From NCBI GenBank assembly GCA_002686955.1, contig NYZA01000207.1, forward strand, positions 1 through 24,819: DNA of 24,819 nt, read 5' to 3'. Below, piece after piece: positions 4,446 through 22,871 of this stretch. How positions within the stretch are numbered: the stretch's first letter is position 1; each line of letters begins with the position of its first letter. The stretch is from Gemmatimonadota bacterium (GTDB lineage: Bacteria > GCA-2686955). Both the position numbers and the translations under genes were made by a program. The notes under the pieces were generated by a model. The model saw nothing but the letters and a program-made list of their open reading frames with translations, made no database searches and was not told the DNA's origin.

Positions 4446-5066
4446 TTAAAGTAGATCGGGTTGGTTGGCGCGCCAGTCGTCCGGTTGTGGCCACCACCAG
4501 ATCGAGTTCCAGACCTCGATCCCCTCGATGCCGAGTGAAAGGCGGTGCTCGGGCCAAGGGTCACCGCTGAAAAAGGGGTGGTTCGCGATCACCGTAGCCC
4601 CTATCGCCCGCGCCTCCGGAACCATGTCGGCGATCTCCCAACCGTCCATCGAGTCGGCATCGGGCGGCATATTGGGCAGTCCGGCGTGCCCGTCCGATCC
4701 CCATTCCTCGCCACAGATCGGGATCACGCCGAAGCTCGGCTCGAACGAGGGGTAGCTGCACGCTTCGAGGGTGCGATGATCCGTAATGTTGATGCTGGCG
4801 AAGCCGTGCAGGGCGGCCTGCGCGAGCAGGGTCGTCAGCGGAGTGGAGCTGTCGTGGCTGGCGCGGGTGTGGCAGTGATTGGCGAGGAGGAACCAGTCTA
4901 GTTCGTTGCTACGGGAGTCGCCGCCGGAAGGGCGGGTGGGGTCGCGGAGGGCTTCGGGGGGTGTTTCGTTGAAGGAGAGGAGCTCCAGCGGGGTGCCGGC
5001 CAGGGCTGTCGTGGCGCAGTGGAAGAGGAGGAAGAGGGGGACGGATACCGGGATCGACAAGACCAT
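4446..5066 (-). CDS. secreted PHP-domain protein, apparently C-terminally truncated
   Basis: This is a 206-residue protein with a signal peptide (LSIPVSVPLFLLFHCATTALA). PHP phosphoesterase signatures follow: HxH at residues 64-66 (LANHCHT), an Asp-His pair at 96-97 (NITDHR), Glu120/121 and His127 (CGEEWGSDGHAG), and His163 (IANHPF). It ends soon after GIEVWN. In the CehA/McbA-like group of PHP proteins this strand is followed by a segment carrying a last Asp-x-His metal motif, which is missing here, so it is probably shortened. A reading shift at the 3' end would give only about nine more residues. The start overlaps the stop of the upstream beta-helix gene by one base (TAATG), making it third in a minus-strand operon. 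PHP domains usually hydrolyse phosphoesters at a di- or trinuclear metal site; whether this one is active is doubtful. Confidence 0.75.
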   Translation of the reverse strand: MVLSIPVSVPLFLLFHCATTALAGTPLELLSFNETPPEALRDPTRPSGGDSRSNELDWFLLANHCHTRASHDSSTPLTTLLAQAALHGFASINITDHRTLEACSYPSFEPSFGVIPICGEEWGSDGHAGLPNMPPDADSMDGWEIADMVPEARAIGATVIANHPFFSGDPWPEHRLSLGIEGIEVWNSIWWWPQPDDWRANQPDLL

Positions 5067-8000
5067 TATTTCGTCCCTTTCGGTGTGCCCGCCCTCAAAG
5101 CACCCACTCCGCCGAAGGCGCCGATATCGCCCCAGTCACCGCCGAGCCCCGCATCACAGCCAAGCGCTCGGTCCTTGAGCCAGGGAGCACCCGCGTCGAT
5201 CGCCGGAGAATCCTGCTGCCAGCCGCACATGCGCGCCTGGAGGCGAAGGTCCACCTCGACCCGGAATAGAGGATCCTGGTCGAGGTTCCCCTCGCCGGGC
5301 CAGCCCCCCTCGATGATGGAGTGGGTGGCGGCGATTTGGCCGCCATCTTCGTGGATTTCGGTGTCTGTATCACCCCAAAGGATGCAGCTCGTCAGAGATG
5401 GCGAGCCGGCGAAGAGATAGATTCCGCCCCCATCTTCCGGCGCATGGTTGGCCGTGAATGTGCTGTTTGCGAGTTCCGCGTCCCCGCTGAGATAGGTCCC
5501 TCCGCCCCGTGATGCTTGGTTGAATGCAAAGGTGCATCCAGAGAGCGCCACGTTCCCGTAGTAGATACCCGCGCCTCCCCCTTCATGCGAGGATTCGTTT
5601 CCAAGAAGAGCGCTTCGCACGACCGTCACATCGGCACTCGAAGCGTAGAGGCCGCCGCCCCACCCTCGGCCATCAGAGATGGCGGAGTTGTCGCTCACCG
5701 CGCAGTCGATCATCTCGAGTTGACCGCGGAGAGTGTAGACACCACCCCCAAGCGCCCAGAAGCGCCCCGATGATGAGTTCTCGTCTATGTGGCATCCGAT
5801 AATTGAGATTCTGCTCTCCGAATCCCAGGAATAGAGGCCACCACCTTTGCTCGAGCCGAGGGAATCGATGAGATTCGACGACACATCGCAGTCGATCAGC
5901 TCGATCTCTCCACGACCGACATAGATCCCTCCGCCGTATCCCCAGCCGGCTCCCCATATTCCGTCTCCCACGATTCGGTTGTCGGTGATCGAACACTCAA
6001 TGAAGTGGGCGGTGGAATCTGAAACACACCAGACCCCGCCGCCACGGGCGCCGCAGTCGCCGATCGCTTCCGCCCGGTTCCTCTCGATCCGACAACGCTC
6101 GAAGCGGGGGGCGCCCTCATAAGAGTAGACACCGGCGCCGTTGCCCGAGGCCAGTTCCCCCTCGACCCGCAATCCGTTGCCCGCAATCCAACAGTCCCGA
6201 AGCACCGGCGAACCCCCGTCGCTGTAGACCCCTCCACCCCGCGCGACAAGATAGCTCAACACGCCACCAACAGGGGCGGTGTCGTGAGACGTAACCCAGT
6301 TCCCGCGAATCACGCACTTCTCGATCAGTGGCGACGATGAGCAGCGAACACCGCCCCCGAGACGCGCGCGCCCACCGGTGATGGTGAGCCCGGCCAAGAT
6401 GCTGGTTGTATCTTCTTCGTTCTCGAAAACGAACACCGAACCTTCGCCCGAACCGTCCACGATGGTGGTGGCCACGAGGGCGGGGTCCGAGGGGTTTTCG
6501 CTTTGAAGTGTGAGCGCCTTCCCGTCGAAATCGATTTCGCTCTCCAGATAGGTTCCGGGCGCGACGACCACTGCGTCGCCGTCGTTCGCCAAGGCGATCG
6601 CTTGGGCGATCGATGCCACATCGAGCGGCACGCGGATCTCGAGCGGCTCCTCGCCGCGGATCACGACGTAGCGATCGTCACTCGCCACCTCCACACCCTT
6701 ATGCAGCAGAATCATCTTCACGCGTTCGATTCCGGTCGGCACAATGGGCGGCACTTCGAGAGCAAAGGACCGCTCCACACTCTCGCCGTGCTGTAGCGAC
6801 ACTTCCGGCCCGAAGTAGATCGTTCGCGTCACAGGGCGCGGGCCGAGCAGCACAGCGCGGATCCTGTCGAAGGCGAGTGTGTCCCCGCACCAGGCCGCGA
6901 TCTCCATGTTCCCACTGATGCTGTCTCCAGGAGTCGCGACAAGTGGATCGGGATCCACCGTGATCTCAAACTCACATATCCCTCCGCCGTACGCACCCTG
7001 ATCTGCTCGGGTCCCCCCCAGTCCGAAGGCGCAATCGATCCTCCAGTCTTCGTCCCCCGAATATCCGTGATCGATCGCCGCCGACTCCTCATCGAAGCCG
7101 CACTCGGTCGAGCGCAAGCGCCAGTCCCCACTTTCAGGATCGCGAAAAAGCGGATCTTGGAAGAGGTTCCCTTGTCCTGGCCATTCTTCATCGATGGTCG
7201 ACCAAGTGATCTCGATGTCGTCCGGGTCGGCGGAGATTTCGTTCGGCTCGTTGGCCCAAAAGATCGAGTTCATCGCGGTCACTAAAGCGCGATCAGCGTA
7301 GATCCCGCCCGCATCCTCGGGGGCTGTGTTTCCGGCGATCGTACAGTTCCGCAGGAGCGGATTGCTCTGAGAGATGAAAATACCGCCGCCGATTCCAAAA
7401 TCCCCCGGATCGCTCTCCGCCAGATTGGCGACGATGGCGCAGTTCTGGAACTCGGTTCGTCCCCCGAGACCGATCCAGAGACCGCCCCCGTACGATTCCG
7501 AACGATTGTTCTCGATTCTGCAGTTCTCCATTCGCAAGGCGCCCTCATAGCCTCGTGCCAAGACCCCGCCACCGGATCCTTTGCTTCGGTTTCCGGAGAT
7601 CGTGCAACCCTGGAGTAGATAGCTCGTGGAATCAGCGTCGTAGCCCCCATAGAGGTAGATCCCGCCGCCGGAGGTGCAGTCACCTCCGGTAGCAAAGTTT
7701 CCACGGATGGTCACCCTCTCGAGGGTCAGATTTGATATTTCGGCGTACAGCCCTCCGCCTTTTCCGAGATCCGCCTCGTTCCGATTCCCTTCGATCACAC
7801 AGTCGATGAATGCCGGTGCACCGTGGTCACATGCAACGCCACCGCCCTTGCCGTTGGCTCCCGAAAACGAGTCAAACAGAGTATTGCCGGCGATCGTCGT
7901 TCGGACAATGCACGCGGAGGAGTGGTCGCAATAGAGTCCCCCGCCCGCCGGATACCGCAGGTCGGCAGCTTCGTTGTCTACGATTCTGCAGCGATCGATC

Positions 8001-8373
8001 GTCGGAGAACTCCAGGAGCAGAGCACTCCGCCACCCCTCTGATCCCGCCCCCGGTGATCGTAAGCCCGGCCAGAACGCTCGACCTTTCCTCCCCGGCTTG
8101 GAAGTGAAACGGCCGCTCGCTGCCGCCACCCGACACGACCGTCGTCGCAACCGTGAGAGAATCGTCAGGGTCGAGACTGCTCACCAGGATCGCTTTGCCG
8201 TGAAAACCGATCTCGGTTTCGAAGTATGTACCGGGGTGCACGAGCACCGTATCGCCTTCGATCGCAACATCGATCCCAGCCTGGATGGTTGGGTAGTCCG
8301 CCGGAATATCGATCGTTCCGGCCGTCGCCGTGATGGCGAGACTGAGTGTCACCAACGGGGTCGTACAACGCAT
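5066..8373 (-). CDS. large secreted beta-helix protein, interrupted by a one-base frameshift
   Basis: Two overlapping frames together encode one roughly 1,102-residue protein. The first begins at 8373 with a signal peptide (MRCTTPLVTLSLAITATAG), then DYPTIQAGIDVAIEGDTVLV and GLTITGG. It then runs into nonsense and stops at 7978. The second frame takes over at GGGVLCSWSSPTIDRCRIV and runs to 5066. Restoring one G to the GGGG run at 8037-8034 rejoins them. Layout: beta-helix 1 to about residue 450; an Ig-like linker (about 458-577); beta-helix 2 beginning VPLDVASIAQAIALANDGDA, ending in SPAIDAGAPWLKD. Coils follow GGGIYxxxGxxxxxxCxIxxN ladders, as in polymorphic-membrane-protein-like repeats. 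There is no sorting or anchor domain at the C-terminus. AAGGAG four bases before the ATG supports the start, eight bases after the propeller gene. It could be a sequencing error in a homopolymer, or a real broken gene. Confidence 0.8.
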
Positions 8374-9711: not shown

Positions 9712-9750
9712 ACGCAGCCGCGGACTCGTGAGCCTCTCGGAAGGGTGCGT

Positions 9751-9756
9751 TATACT
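9751..9756 (+). promoter_or_regulatory. probable -10 (TATACT) of beta-helix unit copy 1
   Basis: TATACT, followed by GATTT, is 92 bases before the ATG at 9843. The paralogous unit has TATGATTTT at 91 bases before its matching ATG, so position and sequence are kept between the two copies. No clear -35 can be named. Confidence 0.4.
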
Positions 9757-9833
9757 GATTTGGCCGAAGCCAATTCGCGAGGAGACCGAGGCATCGGGAA
9801 CCAGACCGGCTGCCGCACGACCCCGGAGGGGGG

Positions 9834-12692
9834 ATGAGAGCCATGCGCCGTCTTTCGCTTCTCACGGCCCTTTGGATAGCAGGCTCGCAAGGGCCGACGG
9901 CCAACGCGGCTGTGCTCGAGGTCCCCGACGACTACGCCACGATCCAGGCGGGCATCGATGCCGCGGGATTCAGCGACACCGTACTGGTGGCGCCGGGCAC
10001 TTACTTCGAGACCGCGTTGATCGAGAGGAAGAGCCTGGTTTTGATGTCCGAAGCGGGGCCGAAGGCCACCGTGATCGACGGAAATGGCGCCGAGCGCGTG
10101 GTTCAGCTTCTCGGCCACCGGCACACCTCGCCGACGATCGAAGGGTTCACGATCCGCGGGGGCGATGGGAGCAGAAAAGCCGGCTCGGGGATCGATATCG
10201 ACTCGGCGGCCTCGATCCGCCGCTGCGTCGTTACCGAGTGCAGGGCCGCTTCGTCCTTGAGCGCCCCGATCTGGATCCACTCCGGCCCGGTCACGATCAC
10301 CGACACCCGAATCACGGACAATCCGGTGGACTACGCGGCGGTCAGCGCAACCTGCTCGCACAACGTCGTCTTGGAACGGTGCACGATCTCCGACAACGCC
10401 GGCCCCGCGGTTCTCTATCCGCCCTATTGCGGCCCCGGACCAACGATCCGTTCCTGCACGATCGTAAACAACCGATCCGGGCTCGTACTCTCCGGCACCG
10501 GATCCGCTCACATCGAGCACAACATCATCGCGTTCAACGAAGAAGCGGGCATCACGGGCGACGATGCCTGGCCGAGGCTGACGCGCAATTTGGTCTTCGG
10601 CAACGGCATCAACTACGGCGGTCCGATCCCGGCGGGCCCACTCGATCTTCATATCGATCCACTCTTGCTCGACGCCGAAGAGGGCTATGCCCCCTCACAA
10701 CGCTCTCCCGCCGTCGACGCGGGCGATCCTCACCTCTCCGTCGGAGGGATCCAAGGCCCTCGGGCCGATCTCGGGGCCATGGATGCGCCTTACCTACAGC
10801 ATACGGCTCTGGCTTTCAGATTCGAGCCGCCACGGGCACGGCTCAAGGTCGGGACCGAGCTCGATGTCGAGTTGCTGGTCACGAATCCGGGCTCGCGAAG
10901 CGTCGACTTCACACTCCTGCTGCGGGCCGACGGAGGCCTCGCCTCCCCCAGCGAAGAGCAGCTCTCCCTTGCCCCGCGCGAGAGCTGGAGGGTTCCGATC
11001 ACGGTCGCGGCCCCGAATTGGCAACAGACCGGAGACTACGTTCTGAGCGCCCGCGCCCTGCTCCCCGATACACTTCATCTGGCCGGCGGCGCGGTTCTCG
11101 ATCTCGAAGTCTGGCGGGGAAACGACACTTGGCGCGTACCTGAGGACTTCCCGACGATCCAATCAGCCATAGATGCCGCCGATGACGGCGACACCGTGCT
11201 GGTTTCTCCCGGCACGTGGGAGGAAGCGCTCAGGATCAGACGCAAGTGGATCATGCTTCTCTCGACCGACGGACCGGATTCCACCGTGATCCTGCCCCCG
11301 GAGTGGAAGCAAGGGATCTACTGCGAGGACGCCGGCGGAATCGTCGAGATTGGCGGGTTCACCGTGCGCGGAGCGGTGTACAACGGCACCGGCGCCGGAA
11401 TATCGCTGGTCCGAACCGACGCCCACATCATCGAGTGTATCGTCGAGGATTGCCAGACCTGGGGCTATCGACACGAAGGCGGCGGAATGGCGCTGGGAAC
11501 CGGCCGAGCTCATGTCGAGGGGTGTATCGTGCGCAACAACATCTCGACGCACTACGGAGGCGGTATCTTCAGCGACTGGGGAGGTGTCGCGATCATCACG
11601 GGGAGCCTCATCGTGGACAACCTGACCTACGTGGTCGGTGGGGGCATCTACGCCGCCCATCGGGTCGAAGGCAACACGGTCTCCCGCAATTCCGTGAGGG
11701 GCGTGTCCATGAGCGACATAAGCGATCCGGACGCCAGCCCCGATCTCGACAAAAGCACGTCGTATTTCGGGGGCGGAATCGCGGTCAGCGACAGCGTGAT
11801 CGGAAACGATGTGCGCGACAATCTATGCTACTGCAGCGTCAGGCCTGGAGGAGAGGGGGGCGGCATCGCCTTTGGGGACGTGATCGAAGGCAATCTGGTG
11901 GTCGGCAACGAGGGTGATGGAATCGGAGCGGGGAGCTGGTACTCTCCCACCCACATCGAACGAAATATCGTAGCTTTCAGCGATGGCAGCGGCATCGAGG
12001 TCCAGAACTCGCGACTGGTGGAGGTGGTCGGCAATATCCTCTACCGCAATCGTGGATCGGGGTTCTTTCAGGTCTCCAGTATCGAAATCGATGCCACGAA
12101 CAACGCGATGATCGAGAACGGCATCTACGGGATTGAGAGCTACACCTACGACGGCATCGAACGGATTCAGCACAACTCCCTCCACGGCAATGTGGTGCAG
12201 GACGCCCACGGATTCGTGCCCGACTCGACTCAGATCTGGGGTGATCCTCTTTTCTTCGATCCCGGCGCTTTCGATTTCCGCCTCCTTCCCGATTCACCCC
12301 TGATCGACACCGGCGATCCCGATCGCATCGATCCGGACGGTACACGAAGCGATATCGGTCCGGCGCCCTACGATCAGTCTCTCGATGCTCAGCTCTATCT
12401 GAGCCCCGACCGCGAGCAGGTGAAGCCGGGCGAGCGCCTCTTCTTGCGGGTGATGCTGGCAAACCTTGTCGGCAGCCCCCGCGCTTTCGAGATCGAAGAC
12501 GCAATCCGTGCGCCTTCCGGGGACGTGTCGCGTCCCCATCGTATTCACGTCGTCTTGGGTCCGGCGGCAAGCGCAGTCCGCACCGTAGAGTGGCGGGTGC
12601 CGCTCGATTCGGAGATCGGGGTCCACGAAGTCGGGGCTCGGGCGGCCCCGGGGGTTTGGGATCGCTTCGAGATCGAAGTGGTGCCACGATGA
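9834..12692 (+). CDS. secreted two-module beta-helix protein (copy 1, gene A)
   Basis: This is a 952-residue exported protein. A signal peptide (LSLLTALWIAGSQGPTANA) is followed by beta-helix 1, opening VPDDYATIQAGIDAAGFSDT and ending at SPAVDAGDP near residue 290. An Ig-like linker spans about 320-430. Beta-helix 2 opens VPEDFPTIQSAIDAADDGDT near 431 and ends at SPLIDTGDPDRIDPDGTRSD near 820. A second Ig-like domain covers 850-952. Coils show CTISDN, CTIVNN and GGGIYAA ladders. It is a full-length paralogue of the 941-residue protein in copy 2 and has no membrane anchor or sorting domain. The ATG at 9834 has GGAGG four bases upstream; an ATG three codons later, at 9843, aligns with the paralogue's start and may be the real one. 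Its stop overlaps the relic's ATG (ATGA). Parallel beta-helix proteins of this style are usually adhesins or polysaccharide-binding proteins; function is not assignable here. Confidence 0.83.
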   Translation: MRAMRRLSLLTALWIAGSQGPTANAAVLEVPDDYATIQAGIDAAGFSDTVLVAPGTYFETALIERKSLVLMSEAGPKATVIDGNGAERVVQLLGHRHTSPTIEGFTIRGGDGSRKAGSGIDIDSAASIRRCVVTECRAASSLSAPIWIHSGPVTITDTRITDNPVDYAAVSATCSHNVVLERCTISDNAGPAVLYPPYCGPGPTIRSCTIVNNRSGLVLSGTGSAHIEHNIIAFNEEAGITGDDAWPRLTRNLVFGNGINYGGPIPAGPLDLHIDPLLLDAEEGYAPSQRSPAVDAGDPHLSVGGIQGPRADLGAMDAPYLQHTALAFRFEPPRARLKVGTELDVELLVTNPGSRSVDFTLLLRADGGLASPSEEQLSLAPRESWRVPITVAAPNWQQTGDYVLSARALLPDTLHLAGGAVLDLEVWRGNDTWRVPEDFPTIQSAIDAADDGDTVLVSPGTWEEALRIRRKWIMLLSTDGPDSTVILPPEWKQGIYCEDAGGIVEIGGFTVRGAVYNGTGAGISLVRTDAHIIECIVEDCQTWGYRHEGGGMALGTGRAHVEGCIVRNNISTHYGGGIFSDWGGVAIITGSLIVDNLTYVVGGGIYAAHRVEGNTVSRNSVRGVSMSDISDPDASPDLDKSTSYFGGGIAVSDSVIGNDVRDNLCYCSVRPGGEGGGIAFGDVIEGNLVVGNEGDGIGAGSWYSPTHIERNIVAFSDGSGIEVQNSRLVEVVGNILYRNRGSGFFQVSSIEIDATNNAMIENGIYGIESYTYDGIERIQHNSLHGNVVQDAHGFVPDSTQIWGDPLFFDPGAFDFRLLPDSPLIDTGDPDRIDPDGTRSDIGPAPYDQSLDAQLYLSPDREQVKPGERLFLRVMLANLVGSPRAFEIEDAIRAPSGDVSRPHRIHVVLGPAASAVRTVEWRVPLDSEIGVHEVGARAAPGVWDRFEIEVVPR

Positions 12693-12955
12693 GGCCGGTG
12701 GGTCGCTTGCTGCTGGTATGTGGGATCGCGTGCGGAGCGGCCAAAGGTCCCGGAGGTGCCATGGCCGCGTAGATCGTGGTGCGTTCCTCGGAGGGCGCGG
12801 GAGCAACCGCGATCACCGTCGACGTGCCCGCGGGCGGCTCGGTCGCCGTTGAGGATTCGATGATCCTTCCTCCCAGTGCACCGCTCGGGCGGTACTTGTG
12901 TCGCGGCGAAGTGGAAGGGCTCGCCCGGGACGAACGAGAGGTGTGGGTGGAATAG
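12689..12955 (+). pseudogene. relic of a large beta-helix gene (copy 1, gene B), internally deleted
   Basis: The ATG overlaps the preceding stop exactly as in copy 2. It reads a signal-peptide-like start (MRPVGRLLLVCGIACG) and meets an in-frame TAG at 12770. The same frame then continues IVVRSSEGAGATAITV and DVPAGGSVAVEDSMILPP, and ends with VEGLARDEREVWVE and a stop. The intact 1,532-residue protein has IVV at residues 31-33 and ends RSIEDPG, DVPAGGSIAVEDSMIVPP, VEGLARDEREVWVK. So the start and the last ~60 codons survive, joined in frame, and roughly residues 34-1470 are lost. The junction is near 12781. The DNA of the tail is still closely similar to copy 2. The stop and the loss of every helix coil make this a pseudogene; re-initiation at GTG 12776 could give only a short Ig fragment. 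Confidence 0.82.
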
Positions 12956-12976: not shown

Positions 12977-15100
12977 TCAGTCCATCCGATCCCGCACCGG
13001 CCGCAACTCACCATCTCGCCACTGCCCGACCTCGACGGGCGGCCTCGGCAGATCGGCGTTGACGACTCGAAGAGTGTCGTCGACTCCCCAGATGATGAGC
13101 GCTTCGTTCAAAGGGCGGAGCTCGACTTTGGGCCAGCACTTGGGGAGCTCGATCAGCGCACCTCGATTACGAAAGCGTTCGTTCGAGGGCTCGATTAGCT
13201 CGACAAGGCAATGCTCCCCGAACACATCGATGTGCGCGAGTGAATATGAACCTTCCTCCACGCCTGATGCCGCGCCGAAATACTTCACACCATGCCGCAG
13301 AGGCCATTCGGTGTGTACATAGGTCAATGTCCCGTCGCTCTCGATCTCGAAGCGCATCGCAGAATAGTTGATTGAGACAAAAAAGCCGTCGTGGACCAGG
13401 TCGGCGTTGTGAGAGTAATCGTAGCGCCGTTCCCTTCCGAAGGACACTCCTCCGTCATGATCCGGCTTCCAGGACACGAAGAAGCTCTCATAGCCGTAAG
13501 GTCCGATCGCTCCAGAGACAATGGCAATCGCTCCACTGGCGACGAGGTCGCTGGGACTGTACTCGCCGGACAGCACGCCCGCAGCGATGAGACGGGGAGC
13601 GGCAGGAGCAGTGATGTCGGTTGTGTTCACCGCCAGATCGCCGAATCCGAACACCTCGGTCTTTCCGGCCGAGTGCAGATAGGTGCCGGAGCGGCGGCCG
13701 ATCCGCGACCCATTCCCCCGCCGCTCCAGCCCCGGCCGGGCGTCGGAGCTTCCGACGGCGAGACCGTAGATGTTGTGGTCTAGTTCGATGGTGGAGCGAT
13801 GGCGTGGCGTCCAGGGGTGCTCCAAGTCGAAAACATAGACTCGATTGGCGGAACTCGCCGCCAGCCGGCTTCCTCCGGCTGCAAGTCGATCCCAATAGGG
13901 TACTCCCGGCACACCGATCTCCCCGACAACCCAGGGATCACGTGGATTCGACAGGTCGACCGCAACCAGAAGCGAGTCGACTTGCGCGGAATGAGCGTAG
14001 AGAGTGCTCGACGCTTCGTCGACCACGGCTCCGTGGGAGGCGCTCGCGGGCAGGTGGCGAATCCAGCGGCCGGATCTCTCCATCGCAAGTCGCCGCACTC
14101 GGATCGGCTGCTCGTTCTCGACCAATGTGATCCGTTCTCCGGCCGCCGAGATGCTGAGCACGATGTCGTTCCGCTCGCGATCCTCCTTCCATCCCCCCAA
14201 CTCCCTGCCATCGCTGAGCCACCAAAGCGCTACACCCGATGAATCGACGACTTCGTTGTGGGCGTGCCAGTGAATCGCCGCAAGTGAATCGGTCGCGGTG
14301 ATACCGGCCACACGCCCGAACATGTGGCTGAGTGAGCTAGTCCATCGCTTGACTGGATGGCGCGGATCGGTCACGTCCCACGCCTTGATGCCATTCCAGC
14401 CGGTCGCCAGCAGTTTATCCCCGGTGCGCACCAGCGGTGGTGAAACGCGGGGCCAGGGAAGACGCACCGCGGAGCCTATCCAGAGCGAGTCGGTCTGAAT
14501 TACCGTCTCTGGGTCGGATGCGTCCAGTACTTCGATCCACCATTCTACGTCCTGGTAGGGCTCCCACTTCGCGCACGCCGCATAGACCACTCCGTCCCCT
14601 CCGGCGGCCACGCCCGGCCCGGAATCCGCCCCCGTATCCCAGCTCCCCAGCAGATCGAGCTCCCCCGGAGCCGAAATATCGAGAATCTCCAGGCGCCCGT
14701 CATCGATCATCAGGTAGGCACGGTCGGCGGCCATCGCGACCCCCGCGACTTCAGATTCGCCCAGATCCGGCAGGTAGGTTCCGAAAAGCCCCGGCTCTCC
14801 GGGATCGCTGAGGTCGATCGCCAGCACCGAATCGGATCCGGTGGCCACGATGGCCAAATCGCCCTCGGCCGCCATCGCGAATACGCCCCCGGGTGCATCG
14901 ATCCGCCCGAGCTCGACCGGCGCGCTCCAATCGTCGCCCCCCAGCAGAACGAGCTCGCTATCGGTGCTGACGAGGTCGAGCTCGCCAATCGAGAGCAAGC
15001 GGGAGTAGCCGGCGTGCGTCACCGCATGGGCGCTCGATGCCGCGACAAGGAGAGAGCGAAGGATGGGTGATCGGTGTTGTGGGTTACCTATCTCGATCAT
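12977..15100 (-). CDS. secreted LVIVD-repeat beta-propeller protein
   Basis: This is a 707-residue exported protein with a signal peptide ending about AASSAHA. It has repeated blades of the LVIVD type, consensus [LV]xxxD[ILV][ST]xPxxP: VLAIDLSDPGEPGLFGTY, LEILDISAPGELDLLGSW, IEVLDASDPETVI, IKAWDVTDPRHPVKRW, LVAVDLSNPRDPWVVGEI, VYVFDLEHPWTPRH and TTDITAPAAPRLIAAG. About seven such units can be seen, plus other less regular strands. LVIVD proteins are secreted or surface propellers of unknown function; no catalytic residues are visible. AGGAGG lies seven bases before the ATG, so the start is secure. The gene lies in the opposite direction between the two copies of the duplicated beta-helix unit and ends 21 bases after the relic. 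Confidence 0.8.
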   Translation of the reverse strand: MIEIGNPQHRSPILRSLLVAASSAHAVTHAGYSRLLSIGELDLVSTDSELVLLGGDDWSAPVELGRIDAPGGVFAMAAEGDLAIVATGSDSVLAIDLSDPGEPGLFGTYLPDLGESEVAGVAMAADRAYLMIDDGRLEILDISAPGELDLLGSWDTGADSGPGVAAGGDGVVYAACAKWEPYQDVEWWIEVLDASDPETVIQTDSLWIGSAVRLPWPRVSPPLVRTGDKLLATGWNGIKAWDVTDPRHPVKRWTSSLSHMFGRVAGITATDSLAAIHWHAHNEVVDSSGVALWWLSDGRELGGWKEDRERNDIVLSISAAGERITLVENEQPIRVRRLAMERSGRWIRHLPASASHGAVVDEASSTLYAHSAQVDSLLVAVDLSNPRDPWVVGEIGVPGVPYWDRLAAGGSRLAASSANRVYVFDLEHPWTPRHRSTIELDHNIYGLAVGSSDARPGLERRGNGSRIGRRSGTYLHSAGKTEVFGFGDLAVNTTDITAPAAPRLIAAGVLSGEYSPSDLVASGAIAIVSGAIGPYGYESFFVSWKPDHDGGVSFGRERRYDYSHNADLVHDGFFVSINYSAMRFEIESDGTLTYVHTEWPLRHGVKYFGAASGVEEGSYSLAHIDVFGEHCLVELIEPSNERFRNRGALIELPKCWPKVELRPLNEALIIWGVDDTLRVVNADLPRPPVEVGQWRDGELRPVRDRMD

Positions 15101-15133: not shown

Positions 15134-15359
15134 TCAGGGTGTGCCACAAGGGTGTTCGCGCCAATTCTCGTGCGCAGGGGTGGGGCGCGCCTGGCTCGGG
15201 TCTTTTCGCGGGCAAAGAGGGCGTCGCGTTCGGGGACACGGAGCCGTTGGGCGGGCCTGGCTGCGAATGGCGGCACTCGGCGAGTCAATGCTCGGTCATC
15301 CCGCCTCTTCCTCTGCTCTGCGCCGGCAATTCGCCCGCCTGATCAACCACTACTGCTGT

Positions 15360-15365
15360 TATGAT
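15360..15365 (+). promoter_or_regulatory. probable -10 (TATGAT) of beta-helix unit copy 2
   Basis: TATGAT, followed by TTT, lies 91 bases before the ATG at 15451 and aligns with TATACT of copy 1. Conservation of spacing and of nearby GGAGxCCGxGG and CCGCAC blocks supports a kept promoter and leader. Confidence 0.4.
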
Positions 15366-15450
15366 TTTGCGTAGTAGTAGTTCAGTGCTCAGGAGTCCGC
15401 GGTGCCGGCTTCGACGGGGTACCGCACTGTCCCGATGGGGGAACCGAGCG

Positions 15451-18276
15451 ATGCGCAATTTCTCCCTGCTGATCGCAAGCGTGCTGATGGTCTGGATCGC
15501 TGTCTTCTCGGGGTCGATCGCCGGAGCAAGAGTGCTCAGAGTTCCGGCCGGGTTTCCCAGCATTCAAGAGGCCGTCGATGCGGCTGGCGAGACCGATACG
15601 GTCTTGGTGGCGCCCGGAACCTACTTCGAATCGGTGCTCGTCGATGATAAGAGTCTGCTTCTCGTTTCCGAGGCGGGACCGGAAGAGACTGTCATCGATG
15701 GGGACGGGGTGGAGAGAGTAATCGAGCTAGCGGGCTATCGGGATGCACTCCCAACGCTTGCGGGGTTCACGATTCGTGGCGGCGACGGGGGTAGAGAGGA
15801 TGGGGCGGGAATCCATATCGGATCGGCGGCCACGGTCCGCGAGTGCATCGTCACCGATTGCCTTGCCGACTACAGCAAGGGCGCCGTGATTTGGTGCGAC
15901 TCGGGTCCCGCCACGATCGTCGATACGCGAATCGTAAACAATGAAGCGAACTTCGCGGCCATCAACGTCGATTGTTACTCCGCCGTTCCGAGCGTGGAAC
16001 GCTGCACGATATCCGGCAATACCGGGAGCGCAATCCGGTCTGAGTGTAGATACACCACGAGCCCCACTTTCACGGTCCGGTCGTGCACAATCGTCGACAA
16101 TAGAAACGGGATAGTCTCCGCCCCGGAGTCGGCACATATCGAAAGGAGTATCGTTGCGTTCAACGAGGGCACCGGTATTTCGGGTATCGATCACGGGCCG
16201 ATTTTGCACCACAATCTGGTGTTTGGGAACGGTGTCGACTATTCAGGCGCCGCTGAGCCGGGGAGGCTCGATCTTCGCATCGATCCCCATCTGCTCGGTC
16301 CCAAGCACGACTACGCGCCTTCGAAGATCTCTCCCGCGGTCGACGCAGGCGATCCTTCCCTCCCCATCGGACCCCGCGACGGCCCGCGAGCCGATCTCGG
16401 CGCTCTCGAAGCCCCTCATCTCGATCCCGCGCCGCTGGCGCTCTCCTTCGACCCACCCGAAACGCTCATCGCGATCGGTTCGAGCGCTCGAGTCTCGCTG
16501 CTCATCGCCAATCGAACGCCGCGCAGCCTCGAATCGACGCTTCTGGTGCGCGCCGATGGTGGGCTTGCCGAGCCGCGGGAAAGCGTCGTTTCCCTGGCGC
16601 CGCACCAGAGTCTGAGACTGCCGATCGAGGTCGTCGCTCCCGATTCCCTGCGTCCGGGCGACTATGTCGTGACGGCGCGAGTGCTGACCGCCGATCCTCT
16701 GCCTCTGGCCGGCGGCGCGATTCTCGATCTGGAAATCTGGAACGAGCCCAGAGCTTGGCGCGTTCCCGACGACTTCCCCACGATCCAGGACGCGATCGAT
16801 GCTGCCGATGATGGCGACACAGTGCTCGTCTCTCCCGGCACCTGGGAGGAAGGCCTCAAAATCATCGGCAAGTGGATCAAGCTTCTGTCGACCGAGGGTC
16901 CCGATACGACGGTGATCCTGCCGCCGCATTGGAAGCGAGGAATCGAGTGCGAGCGAGTAGGCAACGACATGGAAATACGCGGTTTCACCGTGCGCAACGC
17001 ATCGTACAACGGATCCGGTGCAGGGCTGTCGCTCTTCGAGACGGATGCCCTCATCGCCGCTTGCATCGTCGAGAACTGTGAAGCGTGGGGATGGCATCAT
17101 GACGGCGGCGGGATGTGGCTCGGAACCGGATATGTCAGGGTCGAGGGGTGCGTCGTTCGCAACAACAGCTCCTCCTATCACGGCGGCGGAATCTACAGCA
17201 GTTGGCGCGAGAATGCAGTCATCACCGGCTGTGTGGTCGTCGATAACGAAACGGTCGTCACCGGCGGCGGCATTCGAGGTGGACGGCGTATCGAGGGCAA
17301 TACGGTCGCCCGCAACGCCATCAGGCCGGATTGGCTTTACGAACTACCCGAGCCCGGCGCCGGTTCCGATCTCGGAAAGACGACCGACTACTACGGGTCT
17401 GGCATCGCCTCTGCCGACAGCGTCATCGGCAATGAGGTGCGGGATAATGAAGGGGGTGATTCGAGCCTGACCGGAGGCAACTGCGTCGCCGGCAATTTGG
17501 TCCTGAACGGCAGCAGAGGCGGTATCGAAGCCTGGCCAGGCCCTATCAGCAACAATATCGTCGCTTACTGCGCAGGTGACGGCATCTATGCTCGCGGGTC
17601 CCATGCCGACATGATCGGGAATATCCTCTATCGCAACGCCCAGAGCGGAATCCTGCAATCAGGCAACTACGCCTTCGAGATCACCAACAACGCACTCATC
17701 GAAAACGGCATGTACGGAATCCTCAGCTCCGACTCACCGAGCGCACGGATTCATCACAATGCCTTCGACGGCAATATCGTCGATCCCTATTGGGGATTCG
17801 ATGCCGACTCCACTCAGGTCTACGGCGACCCGCTCTTCTTCGATCCGGCGACCCTCGACTTCCGTCTGCTGCCCGATTCGCCACTGATCGACACCGGAGA
17901 TCCCGATAGGATCGATCCCGACGGCACAAGAAGCGATATCGGCATCACGCCCTACGACCATTCGGGGGACGCTCGGCTCTATCTGAGTCCCGATCGAGAG
18001 CAAGCGAGGCCCGGCGAGCGCGTGTTTCTGCGGGTGATGTTGGCGAGCCATGTCGATTCGCCTCGTGCCTACGAGATCGAGGACGGCGTGCTCACTCCAT
18101 CCGGAGATGTGCTGCGGCCTCATCGGATTCACGTTGTGCTGGGGCCGCGCGCCACGGCGCTGCGCACCCTGGAGTGGAGGGTGCTCGTGGACGCCGAAAC
18201 CGGAGTCTACGAAATTGGGGCCCGGGCAGCGCCTGGAGTGACCGATCGTTTCCAGATTGAGGTGATATCGCCATGA
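15451..18276 (+). CDS. secreted two-module beta-helix protein (copy 2, gene A)
   Basis: This is a 941-residue exported protein. The start at 15451 is chosen because it begins a proper signal peptide (MRNFSLLIASVLMVWIAVFS), has GGGGGA about eight bases upstream, and aligns with the paralogue; an upstream in-frame ATG at 15361 falls inside the -10. Beta-helix 1 opens VPAGFPSIQEAVDAAGETDT and ends at SPAVDAGDPSLPIG near residue 294. An Ig-like linker follows. Beta-helix 2 opens VPDDFPTIQDAIDAADDGDT near 436 and ends at SPLIDTGDPDRIDPDGTRSD near 811. A C-terminal Ig-like domain runs from about 843 and contains LYLSPDREQARPGERVFLRV, nearly the same as in copy 1. The stop overlaps the next gene's ATG (ATGA), so the two proteins are probably made together. 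There is no anchor or sorting domain. Ligand and role are unknown. Confidence 0.85.
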   Translation: MRNFSLLIASVLMVWIAVFSGSIAGARVLRVPAGFPSIQEAVDAAGETDTVLVAPGTYFESVLVDDKSLLLVSEAGPEETVIDGDGVERVIELAGYRDALPTLAGFTIRGGDGGREDGAGIHIGSAATVRECIVTDCLADYSKGAVIWCDSGPATIVDTRIVNNEANFAAINVDCYSAVPSVERCTISGNTGSAIRSECRYTTSPTFTVRSCTIVDNRNGIVSAPESAHIERSIVAFNEGTGISGIDHGPILHHNLVFGNGVDYSGAAEPGRLDLRIDPHLLGPKHDYAPSKISPAVDAGDPSLPIGPRDGPRADLGALEAPHLDPAPLALSFDPPETLIAIGSSARVSLLIANRTPRSLESTLLVRADGGLAEPRESVVSLAPHQSLRLPIEVVAPDSLRPGDYVVTARVLTADPLPLAGGAILDLEIWNEPRAWRVPDDFPTIQDAIDAADDGDTVLVSPGTWEEGLKIIGKWIKLLSTEGPDTTVILPPHWKRGIECERVGNDMEIRGFTVRNASYNGSGAGLSLFETDALIAACIVENCEAWGWHHDGGGMWLGTGYVRVEGCVVRNNSSSYHGGGIYSSWRENAVITGCVVVDNETVVTGGGIRGGRRIEGNTVARNAIRPDWLYELPEPGAGSDLGKTTDYYGSGIASADSVIGNEVRDNEGGDSSLTGGNCVAGNLVLNGSRGGIEAWPGPISNNIVAYCAGDGIYARGSHADMIGNILYRNAQSGILQSGNYAFEITNNALIENGMYGILSSDSPSARIHHNAFDGNIVDPYWGFDADSTQVYGDPLFFDPATLDFRLLPDSPLIDTGDPDRIDPDGTRSDIGITPYDHSGDARLYLSPDREQARPGERVFLRVMLASHVDSPRAYEIEDGVLTPSGDVLRPHRIHVVLGPRATALRTLEWRVLVDAETGVYEIGARAAPGVTDRFQIEVISP

Positions 18277-21200
18277 AGCATCCGACCCGATCGCTGCTGA
18301 TATCCGGAGCGCTATACACACTGGTGGCGTTTGGGTTTGCTAGATCGACCCAGAGCGAGCTGATCGTAGTTCCCCGCGACGTGCCGACGATCAAGGCGGG
18401 GTTCGATCTGTCGGCCGAAGGCGATACCGTATTGGTGCAGCCCGGAACCTACCCAGAGCGAATCGTTTTTCCGGCGCACGAGATTTCGTTGATTTCTCTG
18501 CGCGGTCCAGAAATGACCATAATCGACGGAGAGAACGCAGGCACGGTCGTGAGGTTCGATCCGGGAGATCACCAGAGCACTCTCCTCGAGGGATTCACGA
18601 TAAGACGTGGTAGCGCGATGAACGGCGGAGGGATCAGGGTCGTGGGTGCGTCGCCGGCCATACGTGGCAACATTATCTCCGGCAATCTGGCGACAGGCGA
18701 TGGTGGTGGGATTTGGGTAGAGAGCGGCGGTGCTCCTTGGATCGTTGGCAACAGGATAGATGGGAACATCTCCGATGACGATGGAGCGGGATTGTGGTTC
18801 TATTACGCGGGAGCAGCCTTGGTGGAGGGGAATGAGATCATCAACAACTGGAGTGAGTCGGCCGCGGGCGGGATCGGGGCTACTGGAACCGACAGTTTGG
18901 TGCTTCTCGAGAATCGCATCGAGTACAACGTGGCCACCTCGAGAGGTGCTGTCTATCTCGGCAGCTGCGTTCGTCCCCGGATTGAGGGAGGCTCGGTCTC
19001 CTGGAACCAATCGCGCGGTGTCTACCTTTCGTGGTGCGAAAGCGCCGAACTGAGGAGCGTCGACATCGTGGGCAATTCCTCAGCTTCATATGGCGGTGGC
19101 ATCTACGTCTACGACTATCGCCGTGACGAGTACAGCAGGATAGTCGGCTGCCGTGTCGTGGGTAACAGCGCCTCGTCCAGGGGGGGGGGAATCTACAAGA
19201 GCTTCGGAGGCGGGAGCATCGAGCACTGCACGGTGGCCGGGAACACTGTCGACGATCCGGCGGGACAGGGCGCTGGAATCTACTGGTACCAACCGGATTC
19301 GACTGCGGCGATCCTCGGCAGCATCATCGCCGGCAACGAACCAGACGGCATCTACGGCTACGACTACTACGACGAAACCGAGATCTCCCTGATCCGCAAC
19401 CTCATGTGGAATCATACGGGTGGCCACTACGACAATGTTCGCCCCGGTCGCTGGGATGTGCTCGCCGACCCCCTGCCGATCGCACCCGACAGCCTCGATT
19501 GGCGCCCCCGCGCCGATTCCCCCGCCATCGACGCCGGGCTCCCCGAATGGGAGGTTCCGGAGGGCGGGGGCGCACTGGCCGATATCGGTGCGGACGAGGC
19601 GGTCTTTCCTGATGGTGGCGCTGTGAGCGTCGTGCTCGACTCAGTGTCGGCGGAGATCCGGGACGACTCGCCCCTGCGAATTGCCGCCCGCGTAGTCAAC
19701 CGAACGAACCGGCGGCTGGATACCCGACTACACCTGGCTCTGACCGGCGTTGGGGGAACGACCGTTGCTTTCGACAGCCTGGTCAGTGTTCCGCGCTTCG
19801 GCAGCCTGTGGACCGAGGCCACCGCCGACATCCCGCTGCGGATTTACTCAGGGCCCGCAAGCGTGACAGCGCGCGCGCTCGTAGATCGTCCGCCCGACGC
19901 CGACCCCCTTTTGCTGGCGGGTGACGCCGTAGCGACCACACTCGCCCATGTCGGCGATACTCTCAGAGTTCCGGACGATGCAGCGACCATCGGCGAGGCG
20001 ATTGCATGGGCCGAGGACGGAGACCTCGTGCTCGTGTCGGCCGGCACTTGGTTCGAGCGAATCGACTTCGACGGTAAAGCGATCCGGGTCGTGGGAGCCG
20101 AGGGGCCAAGCGCTTGCGTGATCGACGCCGAACGCGCGGGAACCGCCATCGTGTTCCACCATCTCGAGGATTCCTTGAGCGTGATCGAGGGATTCACGAT
20201 CACCGGCGGCTACGGTAATGATTGGAGAGATATGGGCGGCGGAATGCGCATCGAGCACGGGTGCTCGCCGATCGTTCGCGATTTGTGGTTCGTCGAAAAC
20301 GAAACCACCGGTTCCGGCGGCGGGGTGTTGCTAGAAGGGGGCTCGCCACGCTTCGAGCGTTGCCTGTTCAGCCGCAACATCGCCGTCGGCTTCGGAGGCG
20401 GAGTCGCGGTAGTCGGCGAAACGGCCCACCCCCGCATCACATCGTGCACCTTCTACAAAAATGTGGCGGAGGACGAGGGAGGCGCCATCACACTCGCCGA
20501 CGGCAACGCGACCCTCGAAGGCTCGATCCTGCTGGCCAACAGCGGCTACGGTGCGGTTGCTCATCCCCCGCTGCTCCTGTTACAGGGAAGCGACAATGTC
20601 TACTGGGCCAACGATCCGGCCGAACGCGGGCCTTCACTGATACCGGCCAACCGGCTACCCGGTGACCGCGATGTCGATCCCGGGCTGCGCGATCCGGCCG
20701 CCGGCGATTTCCGGCCGCTGCCGGTGTCGCCCGTCGTGAACGCCGGCCCTGCGGCGCTCGATCCCGGTCTCGACGGCGGGCCACGAATCGATGTTGGTGC
20801 TTTCGAGCTACCCTATCCGCTCTCGGCCCCGATCGAAGTGTCGCTCATATCCGAGCTCCCACAGCTCGTCGGCGGCGCGGAGTTCGAGTGGTCGTACCAG
20901 CTGATCAGCCGCTTCTATGCGACGAACGAATACGACATCTTTCCGAGCATCATCGGCAGAGGTTGGCCGAATCTGGCTGAGCTAGACTCGGATCACACAC
21001 TGCTTGCACCCGGCGACACCTTGCGGATCGATCGATCCGATCTGCTGCCCGACATCTTCCCGACGGGAACCGCGATCCTGCGCCTGCAGGTCCTTGACGC
21101 AGCGGGCGATCCGGTCGCCGCTGCCGTCGCGGATGCGGACTTCCAACACATCCCTCGCGCCCTGCACGTTCCCGCGGACCACCCGAGCGTCGAGGCCGCG

Positions 21201-22871
21201 ATAGAGACAGCGCTTCACTCAGACACCATCGTGGTCGGCCCCGGCACCTGGCACGAAGTGCTGCGCCCGGGCAACAGGCAGATCGTGCTTCGCTCCACTT
21301 TCGGTCCGGAGGCGACGGTGATCGACGGCGGTGGAGATGGCCCGGTCCTGCTGCTGAACGAGGGACAGGATTCGACCACGGTGATCGAAGGCCTGACCTT
21401 CAGCGGTGGGGTGGCCGACGCGGGCGGCGGAGTGACCTTGGGCGGCACATCACCCGTACTGCGCAATGTCATCGTGAAGAAGAGCTCGGCGCTCCCGGCG
21501 CCTGCACCGGGCTACGAGCTCGGCCCGGAGACCTCCACCTTGGCAGAAGAGGTGCGCGGGCACGGCGGCGGCCTCCTGGTCGCCGAGGGTGCACCTCGAA
21601 TCATCGGAAGCGAGCTGCGCGGCAACGACGCCGATGTGGGTGGGGGCCTCTCGGTCTTCAACGGCAGCCTGATGCTGGACCGCACCCGCATTGCGCGCAA
21701 CAGCGCCTTGCTCGGCGGCGGCGGGATCTACATCGGCACCGAGGCGCTTCTGGTCGCCACTGAGCGAAGCGTCATAGATTCCAATGCGGTGCCCTGGCCC
21801 ATGCGGGGTTCGCGGGCCGAGGGGTTCGATCTGCTATCCATCCCCGCCCCGCCCGGTGACATCCGACCCAACACCGGTACCCCGCGACATGCCGGGGGGA
21901 TTTGGATCGAAGGTGAGGCATTCATGGCCGATGCCCTGGTGCGAGCCAATCAAGCCTGGATTCACAGCGAGGCGGGCATCGAAGTCGCGGGTGAGGGATC
22001 TCTCTTCCTCGATCGATCCGAAGTGTCGGCCAACGGAGGTGACGGCATCGCGGTCGAGCGGAACGGCACACTTACGCTCTACGAGGTTCTGTGCAGCGAC
22101 AACACCGGCAACGGAGTATTCGCTGAGGGAACACTCGACATCGACCGCTCGTGGTTCCTGCGCAACGGCGACGATGGCCTCAACTTCCGCTATTACACCC
22201 AGGCCGATATTCGCCGATCCACCCTCGTCGGCAACCTTGGCGCCGGCCTCTATGCGTGGGGCTCGGACGTCGATGGAGTTATGACATCGACGCTGATCGT
22301 CGCCAACGGTATGGGTGTGTCCGGCTACTACAGCTGGCCGCAGCTCGACTACCGCTACAACAACGTCTGGGGCAACGATGTCGATTACTACTGGTCCAAT
22401 CCCGGTCCTACCGACATATCGGTCGACCCCCTCTTTCTCGACGAGGCGGCCGAGGACTACCGCATCATGCCCACCTCGCCCCTGCTCGATGCCGGCGACC
22501 CCGAGATCGATCTCGATCCCGACTCCACATTGAGCGAAATCGGAGCCGGTTGGATCGATCAATCCTCCGGTTTGGTGCTCACGGCAACGCCGCAAGAATC
22601 CACGTACTTCCCGGGTGTGACCGCACGGGTCATCCACCGACTGACCGACCTCGCGGGTGATGGCTGGGCGGTCGAGCTCGAACGCTCGATCGAGGACCCC
22701 GGGCAGCAGCTCCACTCGCTCGAGCCGATCGCCGTCGATGTGCCGGCGGGCGGCTCGATCGCCGTGGAGGACTCGATGATCGTTCCGCCCAACGTACCGC
22801 TCGGGCGCTACTTGTATGGCGTCGAAGTGGAAGGGCTCGCCCGCGATGAGCGGGAGGTGTGGGTGAAGTAG
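18273..22871 (+). CDS. giant secreted three-module beta-helix protein (copy 2, gene B)
   Basis: This is a 1,532-residue exported protein with a signal peptide (TRSLLISGALYTLVAFGFA). It is three repeats of [beta-helix, cap, Ig-like domain]. Helix 1 opens VPRDVPTIKAGFDLSAEGDT and is capped by SPAIDAGLPEW near residue 417. Helix 2 opens VPDDAATIGEAIAWAEDGD near 563 and is capped by SPVVNAGPAALDPG near 819. Helix 3 opens VPADHPSVEAAIETALHSDT near 963 and is capped by SPLLDAGDPEIDLDPDS near 1403. Ig-like segments lie at about 449-560, 845-960 and 1430-1532. Coils are rich in GGGIxxx and CxIxxN ladders, and in Tyr on the outer face of helices 1 and 3. The last ~60 residues match the tail of the relic in copy 1. 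It is coupled to gene A by ATGA and ends 11 bases from the convergent HD gene. An adhesin-like or glycan-binding role is possible but not shown. Confidence 0.85.
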   Translation: MKHPTRSLLISGALYTLVAFGFARSTQSELIVVPRDVPTIKAGFDLSAEGDTVLVQPGTYPERIVFPAHEISLISLRGPEMTIIDGENAGTVVRFDPGDHQSTLLEGFTIRRGSAMNGGGIRVVGASPAIRGNIISGNLATGDGGGIWVESGGAPWIVGNRIDGNISDDDGAGLWFYYAGAALVEGNEIINNWSESAAGGIGATGTDSLVLLENRIEYNVATSRGAVYLGSCVRPRIEGGSVSWNQSRGVYLSWCESAELRSVDIVGNSSASYGGGIYVYDYRRDEYSRIVGCRVVGNSASSRGGGIYKSFGGGSIEHCTVAGNTVDDPAGQGAGIYWYQPDSTAAILGSIIAGNEPDGIYGYDYYDETEISLIRNLMWNHTGGHYDNVRPGRWDVLADPLPIAPDSLDWRPRADSPAIDAGLPEWEVPEGGGALADIGADEAVFPDGGAVSVVLDSVSAEIRDDSPLRIAARVVNRTNRRLDTRLHLALTGVGGTTVAFDSLVSVPRFGSLWTEATADIPLRIYSGPASVTARALVDRPPDADPLLLAGDAVATTLAHVGDTLRVPDDAATIGEAIAWAEDGDLVLVSAGTWFERIDFDGKAIRVVGAEGPSACVIDAERAGTAIVFHHLEDSLSVIEGFTITGGYGNDWRDMGGGMRIEHGCSPIVRDLWFVENETTGSGGGVLLEGGSPRFERCLFSRNIAVGFGGGVAVVGETAHPRITSCTFYKNVAEDEGGAITLADGNATLEGSILLANSGYGAVAHPPLLLLQGSDNVYWANDPAERGPSLIPANRLPGDRDVDPGLRDPAAGDFRPLPVSPVVNAGPAALDPGLDGGPRIDVGAFELPYPLSAPIEVSLISELPQLVGGAEFEWSYQLISRFYATNEYDIFPSIIGRGWPNLAELDSDHTLLAPGDTLRIDRSDLLPDIFPTGTAILRLQVLDAAGDPVAAAVADADFQHIPRALHVPADHPSVEAAIETALHSDTIVVGPGTWHEVLRPGNRQIVLRSTFGPEATVIDGGGDGPVLLLNEGQDSTTVIEGLTFSGGVADAGGGVTLGGTSPVLRNVIVKKSSALPAPAPGYELGPETSTLAEEVRGHGGGLLVAEGAPRIIGSELRGNDADVGGGLSVFNGSLMLDRTRIARNSALLGGGGIYIGTEALLVATERSVIDSNAVPWPMRGSRAEGFDLLSIPAPPGDIRPNTGTPRHAGGIWIEGEAFMADALVRANQAWIHSEAGIEVAGEGSLFLDRSEVSANGGDGIAVERNGTLTLYEVLCSDNTGNGVFAEGTLDIDRSWFLRNGDDGLNFRYYTQADIRRSTLVGNLGAGLYAWGSDVDGVMTSTLIVANGMGVSGYYSWPQLDYRYNNVWGNDVDYYWSNPGPTDISVDPLFLDEAAEDYRIMPTSPLLDAGDPEIDLDPDSTLSEIGAGWIDQSSGLVLTATPQESTYFPGVTARVIHRLTDLAGDGWAVELERSIEDPGQQLHSLEPIAVDVPAGGSIAVEDSMIVPPNVPLGRYLYGVEVEGLARDEREVWVK

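Follow-up and report, generated by a model that had tools for sequence, protein, structure and literature searches.

The short reading frame directly behind the 952-aa gene in the window (the whole stretch of 24,819 nucleotides that was analysed) is probably a pseudogene remnant (12689-12955), left over from a duplicated two-gene unit whose second gene has lost its interior. The genes of the unit with the remnant are called A1 and B1 here, those of the complete unit A2 and B2. A1 (9834-12692, plus strand) is intact and encodes a 952-aa protein with beta-helix modules, Ig-like domains and a signal-like N-terminus (Pfam Beta_helix, 4e-28). Its homologue A2 (15361-18276, plus strand; 971 aa as called) is followed by the intact B2 (18273-22871, plus strand; 1,532 aa), a multi-module beta-helix/Ig-like protein with Beta_helix matches in four stretches (2e-36). 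Profile scores of 125.5 bits for B2, 98.5 bits for A1 and 81.9 bits for A2, compared with a curated cut-off of 25.9, place all three in the Beta_helix family. Between the two units lies a convergent gene for a 707-aa LVIVD-repeat protein (12977-15100, minus strand; Pfam LVIVD, 5e-8).

A1 and A2 are paralogous over their whole length, with 60% identity at the amino acid and 66-73% at the DNA level, and the end of each overlaps the start of the following gene in an identical ATGA. In addition, the flank upstream of A1 (9746-9833, plus strand) weakly resembles 15354-15441, which lies 5' of the homologous start of A2 (shuffle p 0.0034, or 0.003 when rounded; 0.017 in a wider first test), while alignment of the 3' flanks beyond the stop codons of B1 and B2 revealed no common sequence. 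The end-to-end paralogy, the common ATGA overlaps, the weakly similar upstream flanks and the Beta_helix matches in all three genes together suggest that the two-gene unit was likely duplicated. For A2, the start as called probably lies too far in the 5' direction, as the homology to A1 sets in at codon 31 (15451) or slightly before it, and 15354-15441, which overlaps the called A2 start (15361-15450), resembles the non-coding flank of A1.

The frame behind A1 starts with an ATG at 12689 within the ATGA overlap with the A1 stop codon, as described previously, and reads MRPVGRLLLVCGIACGAAKGPGGAMAA, a TAG at 12770-12772, and then IVVRSSEGAGATAITVDVPAGGS...VWVE up to a second TAG at 12953-12955. 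It can be divided into a 27-aa signal-like leader closed by the first TAG (12689-12772, plus strand), a junction stretch (12773-12811, plus strand) and a tail (12812-12955, plus strand) that comprises the last 48 codons including the stop. The 27 leader residues, the TAG at 12770 and the 60 further codons to the TAG at 12953 all lie in one frame, for which the chance is one in three. Self-comparison of the window led to an ungapped alignment of 12810-12955 with 22726-22871 (146 bp, 85.6% identity, E 8e-43), which terminates exactly at the stop codons of B1 and B2, so that the significant DNA match expected for the 3' end was indeed obtained. This match is unique in the genome at its level, the next DNA match being 29 bp long and the next protein match having an E value of 0.018. 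The preliminary description had given the near copy about 60 residues and the loss about 1,436 codons; the copy itself and the preserved frame hold, but its certain part is about 47 residues and the net loss amounts to 1,444 codons. The remnant thus combines an intact paralogue in the same genome, recognised by the 85.6% identity (E 8e-43) of its tail to B2, with disabling lesions, namely the TAG at 12770 and the absence of 1,444 codons. From the strong paralogy of A1 and A2, the similar upstream flanks and a tail at the expected end of gene B, duplication of the unit followed by an interior collapse of its second gene appears to be the best reading. In this respect the earlier view of 9743-12955 as a duplicate of 15352-22871 is retained, but not the single deletion it assumed, as the breakpoints cannot be placed.

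Modelling of the end of B2 alongside those of A1 and A2 led to an eight-stranded Ig-like sandwich (best mean pLDDT 88, with five models spanning 40 to 88), and its matches in the PDB are Ig-like domains, e.g. the alpha2-macroglobulin domain 2p9r. The tail of B1 corresponds to strands 5-8 of the eight in this model, i.e. to the C-terminal half of an Ig-like domain. As half a domain, the tail is unlikely ever to have been free, which would make the long form ancestral and the short form derived. At least two genes have the long form, namely B2 and a third gene B on another contig (locus L021, contig C83, 1-1290, minus strand), which shows 59% amino acid identity over residues 27-433, is cut by the contig end and has no gene A before it. 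This copy was also considered as the missing interior of B1 and was rejected because its upstream genes differ. With half a domain lying behind a stop codon, the remnant is probably without useful function.

The 5' part of the remnant is less clearly related to B2. Its leader, which had been taken for the 5' end of the intact gene, occupies the same ATGA position, but the DNA match is marginal (shuffle p 0.083 in one test and 0.040 in another), and that it is B1's own start would follow mainly from its position in the common ATGA overlap. The junction stretch shows no significant match to the ends or the interior of B2 (p 0.71 and 0.18). Therefore, neither the junction at an IVV motif near 12781 nor the microhomology proposed for it can be located, since IVV is three residues within 12773-12811 and this stretch matches no part of B2; the idea that the helix-Ig repeats drove the deletion is likewise unsupported, as the breakpoints cannot be placed. 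A marginal leader would also fit a different history, in which the old duplication involved gene A alone and the tail was later copied behind A1 from B2 or an unsampled paralogue by ectopic recombination, so that B1 was never whole at this place. Such a late transfer would agree with a tail pair that is younger than the A pair (see below). However, the copied segment extends precisely to the stop codon and no 3' flank is common, and the remnant has a start with a signal-like leader placed in an ATGA overlap just like that of the intact pair, so that a chance transfer would have to hit both; we therefore regard this history as unlikely.

The apparent ages of the two parts of the unit differ. 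Fourfold sites are identical in 18 of 24 cases in the tail pair compared to 139 of 330 in the A pair, which is near saturation (Fisher p 0.002, in a test picked after the fact), and NG86 dS values are 0.46 and 1.25 respectively. The tail dS lies below that of every 45-codon segment of A taken in steps of 15 codons (minimum 0.49), but the contrast is weaker when all synonymous codons are used (p 0.014), and A codons 452-517 reach the same synonymous identity as the tail. A single duplication with subsequent divergence does not predict this difference without gene conversion or rate variation. The simplest reading suggested by the sequences would be that the 3' ends were made alike by gene conversion after the duplication, rate variation being a further possible reason. 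Silent divergence between A1 and A2 is itself uneven along the gene and drops locally around codons 120-165 and 452-517 of A1, which would fit either patchy gene conversion between the two or rate variation. The dN/dS of the tail is about 0.18 (0.084/0.461; 45 codons with 8 changed residues, hence small counts) and reflects mostly the time before the loss, indicating that B1 was probably under coding constraint for most of its history since the duplication and that its collapse is probably recent. An ancient duplication would thus have led to two A-B pairs for secreted beta-helix/Ig-like proteins, and B1 would have been coding through most of its life, gene conversion having perhaps made its 3' end similar to that of B2. 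About 1,440 interior codons may then have been lost from B1 in one or more deletions, which would leave the start and the last half-domain, with the leader now closed by a stop codon, a useful product improbable and A1 intact.

Other decayed copies are found in the same genome. One LVIVD paralogue (locus L130, contig C21, 1463-1996, minus strand) consists of residues 5-138 joined in frame to residues 664-707 as an uninterrupted ORF, with about 525 residues absent and a 6-base overlap of the head and tail matches at the join. Its fourfold identity is equal in head (28/42) and tail (11/16), as predicted for a single internal deletion, and these counts do not support a general excess of young tails. 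A second LVIVD paralogue (locus L129, contig C113, 2463-3562) retains residues 13-277 followed by 576-697 in another frame, so that about 300 interior residues are absent, and partial LVIVD copies are present on contigs C112 and C149. Immediately upstream of the paralogue on C113 lies a frame-broken beta-helix C-terminus. Within the window, a beta-helix gene (5066-8373, minus strand) is split near 8032 compared to an intact 1,105-aa paralogue on contig C35, residues 1-114 being read in one frame and 115-1092 in another, which reflects either a sequencing error or a pseudogene disrupted by a frameshift. Further frame-broken beta-helix copies were detected on contigs C228 and C35. When about 151 kb of this genome were compared with themselves for further ends-only pairs, most matches were repeat-driven. 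From these sequences the B1 remnant appears to belong to a genome background of decayed copies. It is highly improbable that ends-only genes recur in this lineage as a state of their own, as opposed to random decay, through a specific recombination route that repeatedly collapses paralogues of large secreted proteins to both ends and spares start and stop, with the 3' ends held alike by gene conversion.

A short form that is kept and expressed, yielding either the leader or, from a GTG at 12776, a tail of 59 aa, would be in line with the common frame of leader and tail, the dN/dS of about 0.18 and the uninterrupted ORF of the ends-only copy on C21. But the TAG divides leader from tail, the tail has half a domain and no signal peptide, no ribosome-binding site is visible in the sequence upstream of GTG 12776, and constraint before the collapse explains the low dN/dS equally well, so that we give very little weight to this possibility. 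Similarly small is the probability that the end of A1 was falsely joined to the tail of another gene B paralogue during assembly. The source is a single metagenome-type assembly, fragmented into 270 contigs and 84.5% complete, and the third gene B runs off its contig end with its tail unseen, both of which would allow such an artefact; on the other hand, the junction shows no repeat able to cause a false join, the upstream genes of the third copy differ, and ends-only copies also lie inside contigs C21 and C113. More generally, with one fragmented assembly as the source, an assembly error at the junction or at the TAG is unlikely but conceivable. Although the 146-bp segment lies in non-coding DNA close to the large surface-type gene whose 3' end it nearly duplicates, and RVT_1 matches are present in the genome, its interpretation as a template repeat that serves a diversity-generating retroelement (with the B2 end as variable repeat) or as a cassette that donates sequence to gene conversion in antigenic variation can be practically dismissed, the template repeat being ruled out by mismatches of all kinds instead of adenine-specific changes (17 of 21 at non-A positions in B1, and 17 of 21 in B2) and by RVT_1 matches only on contigs C71, C265 and C181 and none on this contig, and the cassette being at odds with a remnant that carries no variable cassette, unlike the functional pseudogenes of Anaplasma msp2 (PMC2789410).

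The B1 remnant is a further, otherwise ordinary example of an already known process, pseudogene decay, within an expanded paralogue family. Redundant bacterial genes are well known to decay under deletional bias (PMC3899985), and the B1 remnant resembles such cases as a redundant copy with a stop codon and a large deletion whose ends are still recognisable, but differs in that the loss is internal, leaves both ends and was possibly preceded by homogenisation of the tail. In large genomes from sediments, duplicated genes are often disrupted (PMC3244439); both cases involve uncultured bacteria in which paralogue families are expanded and many of the copies disrupted, whereas point mutations and frameshifts prevail there and large internal deletions are found here as well. 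The msp2 pseudogenes of Anaplasma (PMC2789410) share surface-protein paralogues, conserved ends and conversion between copies (the last a possibility only for B1 and B2), but they keep a variable cassette as donor. B1 clearly illustrates how large modular surface-protein paralogues decay within an uncultured phylum, and it shows that the components of a single duplicated unit can differ in apparent age. For annotators, short frames after large beta-helix genes should be treated with caution, as they can be remnants.

No close homologue of B2 was found in the searched collection of genome contigs, and one other genome examined from the same phylum gave distant matches only and no clear orthologue. 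Gene A had no relatives in the searched viral contigs; those in the searched genome contigs reached 23-51% in the best segment and were mostly generic beta-helix proteins. Within its own genome, gene A gave 102 matches.
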